This document shows positions 1 through 20,132 of a DNA stretch of 20,132 nt, one piece after another; position 1 is the stretch's first letter, and every line of letters starts with the position of its first letter. The translations under genes and the position numbers were made by a program. A model generated the notes under the pieces. The model saw nothing but the letters and a program-made list of their open reading frames with translations, was not told the DNA's origin and made no database searches. The DNA is from a virus. The stretch covers positions 1 through 20,132 of IMG/VR virus record IMGVR_UViG_3300030380_004838; one strand, 5' to 3'.

Positions 1-35
1 CATTCGAAAAAATCCACAGGGTTCTGGGCTGGCGT

Positions 36-111
36 ATTCTATTCAAGTCACGCCCCCCATAAGAATATGGGGCGAATGAATCGAATAGAGTCCGATTCTA
101 TTCAAGTCACG
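36..111. repeat. Pair of 17-bp direct repeats upstream of terminase
   Basis: The 17-mer ATTCTATTCAAGTCACG occurs at 36-52 and again, identical, at 95-111, 59 bases apart. The right copy also pairs with a partial inverted copy: GAATAGA at 83-89 and TCTATTC at 97-103, a 7-bp stem with a 7-base loop. The repeats lie directly before the terminase ribosome binding site, so they could be late-promoter or regulator sites, or part of a packaging (cos/pac) region. The sequence does not decide which. Confidence 0.75.
51..74. other. GC hairpin between the two leader repeats
   Basis: CCCCATA (55-61) pairs with TATGGGG (66-72) around an AGAA loop. Two further pairs (51-52 with 73-74) form if two cytosines bulge out. 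The hairpin lies between the 17-bp direct repeats in the only non-coding stretch before the late operon. There is no following T-run, so it is not a standard terminator on the + strand. It may be an operator or part of a packaging signal. Confidence 0.5.
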
Positions 112-134
112 GATAGGCCTACGGAAGGAACAGA

Positions 135-1850
135 ATGACTCGAAACGTAACGCACCCGACCGACTACGCTCGGGACGTAATCGCTGGCAGAATTCGGGTC
201 AACAACAACGTAATGATGGCTGCAAAACGGCACATGCACGATCTGACCAGGAAAGACATCTATTTCGACGAAAAGGAACTGGAACGTCTCAATAACTTCG
301 TGGCGGACCTTGAAGTGGCGGACGGCCATGAATTGACGGGGCAGAAAATCGTGATGCTGCCTTGGCAGTCGTTTTTCCTGGGGTCGATCCTCTGCTGGAA
401 ATTCACCGAAACGGACGGGATCCGCTACAAACAGTCGTTTGGGGAGTACGCCCGTGGTGCCGGAAAATCGACCATGTGCGGGGTGCTGCTGCTCTACGTC
501 TCAATGTATTGGGAAGGGTCCGATAATCTTGTGCTGGCAAACAAGATGGACCAGGCCCGCCAAGCCTTCGACGCTGCGAACAAGATTGCCAACCGGGCAT
601 TTGGTGATTGGCGTGCTGAGGACGACGAAGAGGCAAATTCTGCCGAATACGAAACCACGATTCGCGAAACCCGCTGCCGACGCTCAAAAGGCCGATTCCG
701 GCCTATGGCGTCGAAAACCGGCACTTTGGACGGCACAAAGGCGATTCTCTACGTTTGTGATGAGACTGCCGAGGCAAAAGAGGACTACATGCAGAAGGTG
801 GTGTCTGCCCTGCCCAAACTCCGCGATTCCCTCATGGTCAGCGTCACAACGCCAGGATCCCCCGAACTCGGACTCGATAGTCCGTATTACACACGTCGGA
901 GAGTGGCGGAAGAAGCCCTGAAACCCGAAAACTGGGACGAATTGGACGTTTTTGCGGTGTTCTACGGGCTGGACGAGGACGACGATTTCCGAGATGAATC
1001 CACCTGGATCAAGGCCCAACCGAGCCTCGGACACGTCATTCCGGTCTCAAACTACCGCCGACTGCTCAAGGAATACACCGCGCAAGACGCCCTCGACAAC
1101 TGGGAGCGTTACCAATGCTGCCGATACTCCCTTCAGGGCTTGCAATGGATCCAACTTTCGGAGTGGCGGACGGCCAACGCCAAAGTGGACCGCCCGCCGC
1201 CAGGAACGCCGATCTACTGCGCGATTGACTTCTCAAAAGCGTTCGACGTAACCTCGCTTTGCTACGGATGGTGGATTGACGGCAAATTCCACGTCAAATG
1301 GCACCATTGGGCCATCCGAGACCCCCATGTTGAGGGCGTAAAGCGGCATTATCAGCGGTTCGTCGAGAATTGGGCGCGGCACGACAACGTGACGATCTGC
1401 ACTCATCAGGTGCAATACGACCTCGTAAAGCAGAAATTAGACGAGTTGCGGACGTGGGGCGAGGTCAAAAGGATCGGATATGACGCCCTGGGGGGCATGA
1501 AAACCGAGGTTCAGGCTTGGGGCGACATCGACGACCGCTACAACCCCGAAACCGACCTGCCCATGTGGTCCATGCCGCAGACCATCATGGTCATGGGTCC
1601 ATCGACCTACCTCGCCGAGTCATACATCCGGCACAAGAACCTGGTGTTAGATGAAGACCTAGTCGTTGAGTACGCTTTGGCGAATGTGCAACTAGAAAAG
1701 AACATAAATGGCGACAGAAGACCTTGCAAACTCAAATCAATGGGTATTATTGACCCCGTTGTAGCGTTTGTTATGCTTTGCGGCGTCTTGATCCGCGAAG
1801 GGGCCGAGCGTCCCGGCGCATACTCTGATCTGGGGAACATCGCGTGTTAG
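135..1850 (+). CDS. terL: Terminase large subunit
   Basis: This is the ATPase-nuclease motor that cuts concatemeric phage DNA and pumps it through the portal into the prohead. The 571 residues match the usual size of the Terminase_1 (HK97-like) family. An adenine-binding type segment LPWQSF lies near residues 75-80. The Walker A variant RGAGKST is at 107-113, Walker B ILYVCDE ends at D209-E210, and the coupling motif TTPGS is at 238-242. The C-terminal RNase H-like nuclease begins around AIDFSKAFD (D364), with further acidic positions in GYDALGG and near the C-terminus. GGAAGGA at 123-129 is a good ribosome binding site for the ATG at 135. It is first in the late operon and overlaps the portal start by 7 bases. 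No small terminase subunit is visible upstream. Confidence 0.95.
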   Translation: MTRNVTHPTDYARDVIAGRIRVNNNVMMAAKRHMHDLTRKDIYFDEKELERLNNFVADLEVADGHELTGQKIVMLPWQSFFLGSILCWKFTETDGIRYKQSFGEYARGAGKSTMCGVLLLYVSMYWEGSDNLVLANKMDQARQAFDAANKIANRAFGDWRAEDDEEANSAEYETTIRETRCRRSKGRFRPMASKTGTLDGTKAILYVCDETAEAKEDYMQKVVSALPKLRDSLMVSVTTPGSPELGLDSPYYTRRRVAEEALKPENWDELDVFAVFYGLDEDDDFRDESTWIKAQPSLGHVIPVSNYRRLLKEYTAQDALDNWERYQCCRYSLQGLQWIQLSEWRTANAKVDRPPPGTPIYCAIDFSKAFDVTSLCYGWWIDGKFHVKWHHWAIRDPHVEGVKRHYQRFVENWARHDNVTICTHQVQYDLVKQKLDELRTWGEVKRIGYDALGGMKTEVQAWGDIDDRYNPETDLPMWSMPQTIMVMGPSTYLAESYIRHKNLVLDEDLVVEYALANVQLEKNINGDRRPCKLKSMGIIDPVVAFVMLCGVLIREGAERPGAYSDLGNIAC

Positions 1851-7581: not shown

Positions 7582-8402
7582 GCAATCTCTTCATCAACGT
7601 GACAGGGAACACGAAGGGCTTGACCAAAGCCCTGAGTTCCGCCAAGTCCAAACTGGAGACGTTTGACAAGCAGGTCGGCAGACCGCGCGGCGACTTCATG
7701 CGTCGGGCGCGTGGTCGCTTTACGTCTGCGATGGGCGAACGACGAAGATTTGAACAGGGCATGGCAACAATGAAACAAATGGCCCTCGGACACGGCATGG
7801 CATCGCCGGTCTCGGAGGGACAAGAAGCACTAATGCGAGGTCGACTCGGCAAGAAAGAAAAGGGAGCGAGGCAGGCGTATCGCCAGGCACAACGTGAACA
7901 GGTCATCAGTGGAATGCAAAGGCGGCAGAAGATGATGATGGGTGCGGCCCTGGGGGTTATTGGGCTCACGATTGGCGCTGCCACAATCATCGGACGAAAG
8001 GCACTTTCGCAAGTCAACGCGGCAAAGCAGGGTGTCGAGAAATTTCGATTTCTTGGTCCAAGCGCAGACCGAATTATTGCTGCCGAAGTTGGGATGCGTC
8101 TGAATTCAATTCAGACGGCAATGCGACCAGAAGTATCCGCAGCGCTTGCAGAAAAGGCTGAGGCTCAATTGTTAGCCCAACAGCAATCAAACGCTGGCGG
8201 CGGCACTGTAATGAGCCTGACAGTAGACACTTATTTTGAACGCATGGGCGAAGCAATGATTAACGCGGTGTCCGGGTTTTTCAATAATCCCGCCGCTGGC
8301 GTAACTGCGTTTATGACAAATAATCCAACCCTAAACACCGCTTTGAACGCGGCAGCAACTACCGGGCCGGTTTCAACAACAGGAAACACAGGCGGACCAT
8401 GA
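7569..8402 (+). CDS. Short tape measure protein
   Basis: The tape measure protein sets tail length and lies in the tube lumen. The N-terminus ANVGNLFINVTGNTKGL followed by SSAKSKLETF is a common beginning in this family. The middle is basic and helical, a hydrophobic segment runs from about residue 122 to 142 (MMMGAALGVIGLTIG), and the C-terminal quarter is A, N and T rich with low complexity. At 277 residues it is very short; at about 1.5 angstrom per residue it would specify a tail of roughly 40 nm. It starts inside the end of the chaperone extension and overlaps the next gene by ATGA. Confidence 0.78.
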   Translation: MANVGNLFINVTGNTKGLTKALSSAKSKLETFDKQVGRPRGDFMRRARGRFTSAMGERRRFEQGMATMKQMALGHGMASPVSEGQEALMRGRLGKKEKGARQAYRQAQREQVISGMQRRQKMMMGAALGVIGLTIGAATIIGRKALSQVNAAKQGVEKFRFLGPSADRIIAAEVGMRLNSIQTAMRPEVSAALAEKAEAQLLAQQQSNAGGGTVMSLTVDTYFERMGEAMINAVSGFFNNPAAGVTAFMTNNPTLNTALNAAATTGPVSTTGNTGGP

Positions 8403-16862: not shown

Positions 16863-17299
16863 CAGAACGGTATGTCCACGGGCTCGGTGACGACCTGCAC
16901 GTCCTTGAGGTTCACAAACCTGCCGTCCTTGGAGGTCTGGAGAATGCCCTTGATCTTGGTGTTCGGTGGCATCCCCCGCACCGCGTCGGCCGCCTTGTCC
17001 CACGCGGATACCCACTGCGATCGCTCGCCGTTGGATGCAACCGAGACGCGGCAATACTTGCCCTTGTCTTCCACCTGGCCGACGACCATGTCGGTCACGT
17101 CACCCCGCCCCCCCGCCGGTTTGGCGTGTGGAGTTGAGTACCCACCCGGATTCTCGGTGGCGGGTCCAGCCACGCGGTCGATCATCTGGATAAACTGCTT
17201 CAACGTCACCTCGAACGAGTCGTCGGGGACACTGTAATTCCCTGACTCAATCATGCTTTTCATTACCGCGAGTGCGGTGATCCTGGCATCCTTACTCAT
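16862..17299 (-). CDS. SSB-like / OB-fold single-stranded DNA binding protein
   Basis: The 145 residues comprise an N-terminal helical segment (1-45), a flexible G/P/K linker, then a strand-rich C-terminal half (VTDMVVGQVED, KYCRVSVAS, IKGILQTSKDGRFVNLKDVQVV) that could be an OB-fold. It ends VDIPF: an I-P-F end preceded by acidic residues is the hallmark of bacterial SSB C-terminal tips, which recruit repair and replication partners. The order, fold after the linker rather than before, is unlike cellular SSB, so the call is by tail, strand pattern and neighbours. AAAAGGAG lies upstream of ATG 17299. Confidence 0.55.
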   Translation of the reverse strand: MSKDARITALAVMKSMIESGNYSVPDDSFEVTLKQFIQMIDRVAGPATENPGGYSTPHAKPAGGRGDVTDMVVGQVEDKGKYCRVSVASNGERSQWVSAWDKAADAVRGMPPNTKIKGILQTSKDGRFVNLKDVQVVTEPVDIPF

Positions 17300-17419
17300 G
17301 AATCGGCTCCTTTTCTGCCGTTTCTGGACTTCGTGAAATTCGTCACGATGTCCTAACTGTTATTTCGGACCTCGGGGTCGTTGTTAGCATCGCGCGGTCC
17401 GATAACGCGCTGCCGTCTG
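17300..17419. promoter_or_regulatory. Intergenic control region before the SSB-helicase operon
   Basis: This 120-base gap holds several symmetrical sites: TCGTGA/TCACGA (17331-17348), the 14-mer CGGACCTCGGGGTC at 17366-17379, and GCGCG/CGCGC (17392-17410) with GTCCGATAA (17397-17405) as its loop. The 14-mer and the GTCCGATAA box recur in the right-end intergenic region, which is good evidence of a shared regulator or promoter class. I see no clear sigma-70 -35/-10 pair. Transcription should run leftward from here. Confidence 0.5.
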
Positions 17420-17704
17420 TTAGTTCGCTCCGATAGTTTCCATCGGTTCTGGAATCGCGGGATCATGCTCTCCGTCCGGATCCGCGAGAATCTCCATCAG
17501 GACGAGCGCGCCGCGTTGGCATTGAACGATGCCGGACATCGGGCGTAGCGGCGAGCGGGCAACCTCATAGCCTGCGGCGCGAGCGCTGCGATATCGGTTC
17601 GCCAGTCCGTGTCGGCATCGGGACCGGCTTCCGACGTACTGGAATGAATGGATCGCCTCGTCGTCGCTAGGGCGTCCGATCGTGATTCGGAGAATGTAGT
17701 TCAT
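17420..17704 (-). CDS. Small hypothetical protein
   Basis: The frame gives 94 residues from ATG 17704: NYILRITIGRPSDDEAIHSF, then RCRHGLANRYRSARAAGYEV and an acidic C-terminus. The alternative start at ATG 17761 would add 19 arginine-rich residues encoded by the GGGCCC repeat unit, so I prefer the later one. A distinct ribosome binding site is not seen. The sequence has a plausible strand-helix pattern but no known family. Confidence 0.45.
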   Translation of the reverse strand: MNYILRITIGRPSDDEAIHSFQYVGSRSRCRHGLANRYRSARAAGYEVARSPLRPMSGIVQCQRGALVLMEILADPDGEHDPAIPEPMETIGAN

Positions 17705-17719
17705 GGTGGTCCAATCGAG

Positions 17720-17826
17720 ACGGGCCCGAGAACGCCTGGTGAGACGTTGACGGGCCCGCATGGGGTTTGGGATGGAAAACGGGCCCGCGCCGTCCAGAGA
17801 CGAACACGGGCCCGCATGGGGTTTGG
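17720..17826. repeat. Four-copy CGGGCCCG palindrome array
   Basis: ACGGGCCCG occurs at 17720, 17750, 17779 and 17806, steps of 30, 29 and 27 bases. Each contains the perfect 8-bp palindrome CGGGCCCG. Copies two and four continue identically for 21 bases (17750-17770 and 17806-17826). The array fills the gap between two leftward genes. Iteron, operator or partition-like roles are possible. It lacks the length and regularity of a CRISPR array. Confidence 0.75.
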
Positions 17827-19309: not shown

Positions 19310-19352
19310 CGGTGCTTCCTTCCATTGTGAGGCGCGGCCAGCGTGGCCGCGC
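19310..19352 (-). promoter_or_regulatory. Leader hairpin element, copy 1
   Basis: On the - strand a 9-bp stem GCGCGGCCA/TGGCCGCGC (arms 19332-19340 and 19344-19352, 3-base loop) is followed by CACAATGGAAGGAA and then the zinc-ribbon ATG. GGAAGGA serves as ribosome binding site. Copy 2 has the identical stem and the same CACAATGGAAGGAA box. Confidence 0.8.
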
Positions 19353-19359
19353 GGGTGAG

Positions 19360-19590
19360 TCAATAACGCGCGTTCGGTCCGTATTGAATCACGACGCATT
19401 CGCGAACTCGTCGCGGCGCAAAATAATCCTTCTGGAATTCGACGCGGCCAGTCTCGACCCTACTTAGGGTCGAGGGATTCTCCTCGGGATCGCCGATGAC
19501 GACATGCTTCGAACCGTTTCCCCAGCGCTGCTGATCCTGCAATTCCCGTACGAGATCGTTCACGGTCATATAAAGATTCTTGCGTTTCAT
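19360..19590 (-). CDS. Small hypothetical protein, 76 residues
   Basis: The product MKRKNLYMTVNDLVRELQDQ begins with a helix and continues SKHVVIGDPEENPSTLSRVE, RVRECVVIQYGP. A helix ELQ with a following strand and D-P-E turn resembles small phage proteins in which TV-x-x-L-x-x-x-L precedes V-V-I. The start is set by the leader element copy 2, with GGAAGGAA before ATG 19590. A 22-base near-perfect palindrome (19453-19474) lies inside the gene. Confidence 0.65.
   Translation of the reverse strand: MKRKNLYMTVNDLVRELQDQQRWGNGSKHVVIGDPEENPSTLSRVETGRVEFQKDYFAPRRVRECVVIQYGPNARY
19453..19474. repeat. Inverted repeat inside a coding region
   Basis: CTCGACCCTA (19453-19462) and TAGGGTCGAG (19465-19474) are exact inverted copies separated by two bases. 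They fall in the codons for PSTLSRVE of the 76-residue protein. A site for a dimeric DNA-binding protein or an mRNA hairpin are both possible. Confidence 0.7.
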
Positions 19591-19634
19591 GGGTTCCTTC
19601 CATTGTGAGTGAGGCGCGGCCAGCGTGGCCGCGC
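19591..19634 (-). promoter_or_regulatory. Leader hairpin element, copy 2
   Basis: The stem GCGCGGCCA/TGGCCGCGC (arms 19614-19622 and 19626-19634) is identical to copy 1 and is followed on the - strand by CACAATGGAAGGAA, then CCC and the ATG of the 76-residue protein. Four extra bases separate stem and box compared with copy 1. Confidence 0.8.
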
Positions 19635-19646
19635 GGGATAAGGTTA

Positions 19647-19862
19647 TCAGGATTCAAGCCAATCCGTCACTTGGACAAAGCGACTGGACGACCACCGGGC
19701 AGTATCGACCACGACGATATATCCGTCATGATCGTCGGACCAACAAACGCGAACATCGGGCCGGTTGCCGCATTTCGCGAGCAATTGATTCGCAACGCGG
19801 TCCGCGTAGGCTTCGAGCATGACCGCTGCATCGGCTAGGTCGGGCGAAAGAATCGGTTCCAT
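19647..19862 (-). CDS. Small hypothetical protein, 71 residues
   Basis: The product from ATG 19862 is a helix (SPDLADAAVMLEAYADRVANQLLAK) followed by strands (DVRVCWSDDHDGYIVVVDT) and VQVTDWLES, a likely alpha/beta mini-domain. An in-frame ATG 15 bases upstream (MEGNP) belongs to the conserved leader box, so I choose 19862. First gene of the leftward block; family unknown. Confidence 0.65.
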   Translation of the reverse strand: MEPILSPDLADAAVMLEAYADRVANQLLAKCGNRPDVRVCWSDDHDGYIVVVDTARWSSSRFVQVTDWLES

Positions 19863-19906
19863 GGGGTTTCCTTCCATTGTGAATGGCCGATCCAGCGTGG
19901 TTCGGC
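19863..19906 (-). promoter_or_regulatory. Leader hairpin element, copy 3 (diverged)
   Basis: The stem arms are GCCGATCCA (19886-19894) and TGGTTCGGC (19898-19906), with the same loop and apex bases as copies 1 and 2 but different outer pairs; 8 of 9 still pair. CACAATGGAAGGAA follows on the - strand, then CCCC and the ATG at 19862. Pairing is kept though the sequence changed. Confidence 0.78.
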
Positions 19907-20132
19907 TTATATCAATATCGACCGAATCCGCATCGGTGTCCAGCGATCTATAAAGGTTTCTCGCGATTGTGGATGCGCTGTGGACAATGGCGGAGCATGG
20001 CGGAAAGCCGCGAACGCATTATCGGACGACCATCGACCTAACTAACACTTCGCAAGAGTTAGTAATACCGGACTTCGAGGTCTGTTATAACAGCCCCCCC
20101 CTTATCGGACCCCAGGGCTTATTACCGGATGC
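19907..20132. promoter_or_regulatory. Right-end intergenic control region
   Basis: No gene is seen in these 226 bases. It contains two DnaA-box-like sequences (TGTGGATGC 19968-19976, TGTGGACAA 19979-19987), TTATCGGAC at 20019-20027 and 20102-20110, an imperfect hairpin ACTAACACTT/AAGAGTTAGT (20041-20063), the 14-mer CGGACTTCGAGGTC (20069-20082), the palindrome CTGTTATAACAG (20082-20093) and a run of eight C (20094-20101). It likely holds the promoter and operators of the leftward early genes. I cannot place a convincing -35/-10 pair. Confidence 0.55.

Follow-up and report, generated by a model that had tools for sequence, protein, structure and literature searches.

Since 2011, phages have been reported to carry repeated elements of no assigned function directly before start codons, and the authors who described those of cluster K argued against RNA hairpins. 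In the early genes of T7, RNase III sites are hairpins in the gaps, just before ribosome sites, with longer, interrupted stems, and the genome paper on cluster M is said to note repeats suggestive of translational control. The nearest described elements to the unit reported here are the SAS and ESAS of the cluster K mycobacteriophages, in which departures in the two arms are not, in general, compatible with RNA pairing and for which Pope et al. favoured DNA binding (PMC3203893); the ESAS contain SigA-like promoters (PMC11373665). Microbacterium phages of clusters EF and EG carry their own start-associated motifs, of SAS/ESAS-like and inverted-repeat kinds, including in cluster EG an 18-bp inverted repeat located 14–22 bp upstream of starts (PMC7302621). 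Additionally, a scattered palindrome is found in cluster O phages (PMC4351075).

The stretch of DNA analysed here (the window) comprises 20,132 bases and represents a whole virus record. Its rightward genes encode the terminase, portal, protease, and capsid, and its right end is occupied by leftward early genes, including those for an AAA_25 ATPase and a RusA-like nuclease. Three ORFs of 71, 76, and 60 aa (starts at 19862, 19590, and 19309) stand at the 5′ end of this block, and a phrog_2554 gene comes next; the 71-aa ORF had no PHROG match, and no relatives of the 76-aa gene were found in homologue and PHROG searches. Each of the three ORFs is preceded by the same arrangement, composed of a 9-bp stem with a CGC loop, a short gap, the box CACAATGGAAGGAA, a few bases, and the ATG, which bears out the preliminary description of this DNA; the exact box occurs in the window only these three times, always on the − strand. 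That description had also claimed that the stems of copies 1 and 2 are identical and that the arms of copy 3 change together in all but one pair. The first two stems indeed lie inside a 29-bp exact repeat, and copy 3 differs from them at four pairs, of which pairs 3, 4, and 5 have changed on both sides and still pair, while pair 6 is an A.A. The gap between hairpin and box is not constant, copy 2 bearing an extra TCAC, and in all three copies the hairpin ends 8–12 nt upstream of GGAAGGAA and the start. Copies 1 and 2 have their hairpins in the spaces that separate one early gene from the next, immediately ahead of the ribosome site; copy 3 stands at the head of the operon, and upstream of it no gene was found.

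Regarding known classes of element, the three hairpins were absent from a scan for intrinsic terminators, and their 3′ flank reads CTCAC or CATTCAC, without a T run. Rfam returned no match above the gathering cut-off in the window or in eight related loci, and no credible match at a relaxed E-value. No promoter-like (sigma-70-like) match fell inside the hairpins, and one was located just upstream of copy 3 (19942-19914); the total of such matches in the window was within about two standard deviations of shuffles, for a consensus that may not be that of the host.

When compared to the cluster K elements, the window unit is likewise repeated, oriented, and situated directly upstream of starts, overlapping the ribosome site, in all three copies and on one strand, and the extended cluster K form also has an inverted repeat upstream. 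The arms differ: those of cluster K are imperfect, 17 bp long, and separated by spacers of mostly 4–13 bp, whereas those in the window are 9 bp long around a 3-nt loop, with pairing kept. The preliminary description had proposed SAS/ESAS as an analogue unrelated in sequence. The 13-bp SAS GGGATAGGAGCCC had no match in the window at up to 2 mismatches, and the analogy, good as regards position and repetition, does not carry over to mechanism, since the ESAS lack general RNA pairing and contain SigA-like promoters (PMC3203893, PMC11373665). The EF and EG motifs resemble the window unit in being phage-specific repeats before start codons and differ from it in sequence: the cluster EF motif GGGAAAGGACCCC had no match in the window at up to 2 mismatches, nor had the cluster EG inverted repeat GATCAACCNNGGTTGATC at up to 3. 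Covariation is not among the features reported for them in the motif sections of the source (PMC7302621). Judged by its sequence, the window element behaves as a start-associated repeat outside the SAS, EF, and EG families, from which it differs by its predicted RNA pairing.

A search of IMG/VR with the AAA_25 protein identified two contigs, L203 (95% identical) and L204 (86%), and no more distant AAA_25 relatives. A prophage and host search of bacterial genomes with the AAA_25 and portal proteins found none, and named phages showed only distant homology to the window. In both contigs, the first leftward gene follows a leader orthologous to copy 3. In L203, the stem is GCTGGACCA-CGC-TGGACCGGC, with the A.A mismatch retained and one U-G, and in L204 it is GCCGGTTCA-CGC-TGGATCGGC, in which all nine pairs form, two G-U among them, and a T-A pair takes the position of the A.A found in copy 3 and L203. 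The preliminary description had looked to relatives for compensatory changes and for the box beside the stem. Both contigs keep the stem with pairing-compatible changes and carry the leader, so this check went in favour of the description; beyond the window and these two, the core-plus-box pattern and relative searches found the leader sequence nowhere in IMG/VR. The ATG within the box was rejected as a start codon because copy 3 alone has it in frame, unlike copies 1 and 2, and because L204 has lost it (AACGG); since L204 lacks it, the part of the box that is conserved as its core is the Shine-Dalgarno.

The gene behind the leader begins MPLVQTIDNGW... in L203 and L204 and MEPILSPDLA... in the window. 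Nucleotide homology spans the leader and ends before the start codon, where the unrelated gene begins; thus, the window has kept the leader with a different, larger gene block and two extra internal copies. Because copy 3 is common to the three genomes and has no upstream gene that could be found, the unit appears tied to the downstream start. The right end of the window (20132) and the contig ends L203:1 and L204:1 agree to within about 11 bases and may therefore mark a natural end of the genome or a site of packaging; at the left, the window and L203 end at different points.

Table 1. Leader units and adjoining genes at the right end of the window.
Feature	Position	Strand	Description	Basis or remark
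Copy 3 hairpin	19886-19906	-	GCCGAACCA-CGC-TGGATCGGC, 8/9 pairs, one A.A	Orthologous in L203 and L204
Copy 3 box	19868-19881	-	CACAATGGAAGGAA with Shine-Dalgarno GGAAGGAA	Pattern match
ORF, 71 aa	19647-19862	-	Behind copy 3	Other, unrelated gene at the same place in L203 and L204
Copy 2 hairpin	19614-19634	-	GCGCGGCCA-CGC-TGGCCGCGC, 9/9 pairs	Stem scan, repeat, folding
Copy 2 box	19594-19607	-	CACAATGGAAGGAA	Pattern match
ORF, 76 aa	19360-19590	-	Behind copy 2	ORF call
Copy 1 hairpin	19332-19352	-	GCGCGGCCA-CGC-TGGCCGCGC, identical to copy 2	Stem scan, repeat, folding
Copy 1 box	19316-19329	-	CACAATGGAAGGAA	Pattern match
ORF, 60 aa	19127-19309	-	Behind copy 1	Overlaps the start of the phrog_2554 gene
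phrog_2554 gene, 256 aa	18360-19130	-	Cysteine-rich, function not assigned	PHROG match

Across the four distinct stems of this lineage, 94.4% of cells were paired and 4 pairs had changed on both sides, each measure being matched by 2/500 shuffles, and versions of the stems with slid partners gave 0–1 double-changed pairs. The changes among the orthologues (window copy 3, L203, and L204) are pairing-compatible and mainly affect the left arm; the double changes mostly reflect one split, between copies 1/2 and the copy 3 group, and the independent evolutionary events behind the covariation are few. The CGC loop and the inner pairs are nearly constant across the leaders, the orientation is fixed, and CACGCTGG, located in the loop and the inner part of the stem, is unchanged in 5/5 leaders over a varying basal stem. 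Perfect 9-bp stems with 3-nt loops are expected 0.12 times per dinucleotide-shuffled window, and the leftward strand has three, including copies 1 and 2. Besides copies 1 and 2, this strand has a perfect hairpin of this size at 8097-8117 (−), within the rightward structural genes. Stems with 8/9 pairs are expected 3.3 times per shuffled window, so copy 3 taken alone is unremarkable and is notable only for adjoining the same box with the same loop. Allowing 3 mismatches, the box is not rarer than chance in the window, and the 14-mer was rejected as a marker, its 119 IMG/VR stretches being unrelated matches with no second case of the unit; the feature is therefore the whole unit and not the 14-mer. 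In minimum free energy folds, the stem forms in 5/5 leaders (the window copies, L203, and L204) and leaves the Shine-Dalgarno uncovered. The folding z-scores were −1.5, −2.7, and −0.9 for copies 1, 2, and 3, +0.1 for L203, and +1.0 for L204, and stability by itself is weak evidence for the leaders.

The phrog_2554 gene, which has relatives in many IMG/VR contigs and 148 phage records, was the route by which other phages with hairpin leaders were found. Several phages that have just this gene in common with the window bear their own repeated leaders before it or its neighbours, unrelated in sequence to those of the window, the copies being similar within each phage and unrelated between phages. 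The unit had been described as phage-specific, and this is accurate for the sequence, found only in the window, L203, and L204, but not for the architecture, which recurs. For example, contig L147 has three leaders, each composed of two tandem hairpins followed by GGAAGGGA, in which 97.2% of cells are paired and 9/25 pairs have changed on both sides, with 0/500 shuffles as high. In the cluster M Mycobacterium phage Bricole, leaders precede nine to ten consecutive small genes, and among seven aligned copies 9/16 pairs have changed on both sides, the covariation score being matched by 0/500 shuffles. As in the window, the Bricole leaders place a hairpin and then a conserved Shine-Dalgarno before small genes, with strong covariation; unlike the window, they have much longer two-part stems and another sequence. 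Covariation thus backs an RNA hairpin for the window lineage, and the backing is stronger for a pair of unrelated phages, of which one, Bricole, is an isolated mycobacteriophage; the RNA-structure signal predicted in the window is confirmed as modest but real, strengthened by unrelated phages of the same architecture.

Other leaders include the L133 type, with a GNRA loop and one compensated pair, which is weak on its own, leaders with UACG loops (L182, L167, L184, and L194), and other stems (L132, L199, L130, L135, and L164). Caulobacter phage S2B has two leaders (L205:1145-1212 and 1996-2065) whose inner stems differ yet pair; its outer stem GGGGCTCC/GGAGCCCC takes in GGAG, so these leaders may act differently and could hide the ribosome site. 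Among 13 phages and contigs, a Shine-Dalgarno and start followed within 6–45 nt after 32/37 hairpin copies, against a background of 10–26% at random positions, in a sample where many families were picked partly because hairpins preceded starts. Leaders with z below −2 were found in 11/46 phrog_2554 lineages, and the overall shift was not significant (p = 0.08). Repeated hairpins were present at 15/47 phrog_2554 loci and in 5/119 other IMG/VR contigs, two sets that differ in base composition; the same survey with shifted anchors gave 14/47 loci and for that reason does not prove start-association. The global enrichment of shared start-anchored 11-mers (0.00109 vs. 0.00091 at random positions) was not useful. 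The hairpin leader is a recurrent architecture, neither universal nor a rule.

The invariant cysteines of the phrog_2554 protein include C69, C72, C85, C213, C216, and C219. A model built from 20 sequences was confident (pLDDT 85) and had no Foldseek match below E 0.001, and a second structure comparison placed radical-SAM proteins (QueE, TYW1, and viperin-like) at the top with middling Z values (best 5.0). As a candidate trans-acting factor, the protein was set aside, the predicted structure giving a Foldseek null and middling Z values, which do not settle its function.

The unit could be a portable translation-initiation cassette acting as RNA, a reading to which we assign a probability of about 0.5. 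A short stable hairpin just 5′ of the unpaired Shine-Dalgarno GGAAGGAA would insulate each accessory early gene's ribosome site from upstream sequence, and a structured element fronting the message could slow 5′ decay. Since such a cassette would be self-contained, genes could be added or exchanged behind it. The repetition of the unit, its position, the pairing maintained despite arm change, the Shine-Dalgarno outside the stem, and the gene swap behind the leader are demonstrated in the sequences compared; the insulating or protecting effect itself is what we infer. The stem leaves the Shine-Dalgarno free, occurs before the first gene, and has no T run, features that speak against a terminator or a classical occluding switch and favour an RNA element that serves the start following it. 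Against the cassette are the few independent events, the folding energies of copy 3, L203, and L204, which are not clearly below shuffled, and a hairpin enrichment before phrog_2554 genes that is weak overall (p = 0.08). Given the support from covariation, repeats that had been unexplained now pose a testable question, namely whether accessory early genes sit behind interchangeable RNA start cassettes and whether a phage factor reads them. A wider proposal, which we consider possible though less likely than not, is that covarying hairpin and Shine-Dalgarno leaders form a recurrent phage RNA class that arose repeatedly, from unrelated sequences, in phages whose hosts differ, serving accessory early genes as a modular expression cassette, with its own cognate factor reading it in each phage.

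The conserved apical loop exceeds the needs of a pure insulator and would be compatible with a bound protein. A phage or host RNA-binding protein reading this loop might switch the three genes on or off jointly as an RNA regulon, much as MS2 coat protein and T4 RegA act on leaders, and we regard this as possible though rather unlikely. A constant CACGCTGG in five leaders over a varying basal stem is the usual pattern of loop recognition, and copies alike within a phage and unrelated between phages would also fit; however, the likeness within a phage may also stem from recent duplication, no candidate protein was identified, and because the Shine-Dalgarno lies outside the stem, repression by a bound protein would need an added occlusion step.

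Hairpins 1 and 2 stand in gaps of the early gene block and immediately precede the ribosome site, which recalls the T7 RNase III sites, although cutting is only putative here. By that analogy, a polycistronic early message would be cut at each hairpin to release single-gene mRNAs, which we consider improbable. The longer stems in L147 and Bricole would suit such processing, but for RNase III a stem of 9 bp is short, and no gene was found upstream of copy 3, the first in the operon.

In contigs L149, L156, and L181, palindromes such as GCCTAACAAATTTGTTAGGC and CGTTACAACTTGTAACG occur before several starts (phrog_2554 and neighbours), in both orientations and uncompensated, and are likely to be DNA operator sites. 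A DNA-level role for the window unit, as a palindromic operator or promoter part of the kind proposed for the cluster K ESAS, would draw on these palindromes and on the core CCACGCTGG, itself a short dyad; it is highly improbable, given that the flanking arms co-change, the orientation is fixed in the window lineage, and the hairpins contain no promoter-like match. Finally, it is very unlikely that the inverted repeats are by-products of template switching, homogenisation, or recombination junctions with no role in expression: template switching can make imperfect stems perfect and mimic covariation, and homology ends at the leader as it would at a recombination junction, but template switching would not be expected to yield G-U changes or constant loops, and the unit is kept just before the Shine-Dalgarno in three genomes, as are most copies elsewhere.

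Other sites in the window are recorded here. Upstream of the leftward block, at 20040-20110, the motifs GTCCGATAA and TTATCGGAC are repeated together with the dyad CTAACTCTTGCGAAGTGTTAG, with one change in L203, and similar motifs are found at 17330-17420 before the gene starting at 17299; these motifs may mark a common operator or promoter region serving two early operons. At 17703-17826 (−), there are two near-copies of CCAAACCCCATGCGGGCCCG, the first belonging to a terminator-like stem ending CGGGCCCGTTTTCC, and, judging from L203, position 17703 is the probable start of the gene that is listed from 17761. Before the terminase gene, at 34-135 (+), ATTCTATTCAAGTCACG occurs twice (36-52 and 95-111), and a 9-bp/3-nt hairpin GAATAGAGTCCGATTCTATTC at 83-103 (+) is followed by CGGAAGGAACAGA and ATG, an architecture like that of the − strand leaders with an unrelated stem.
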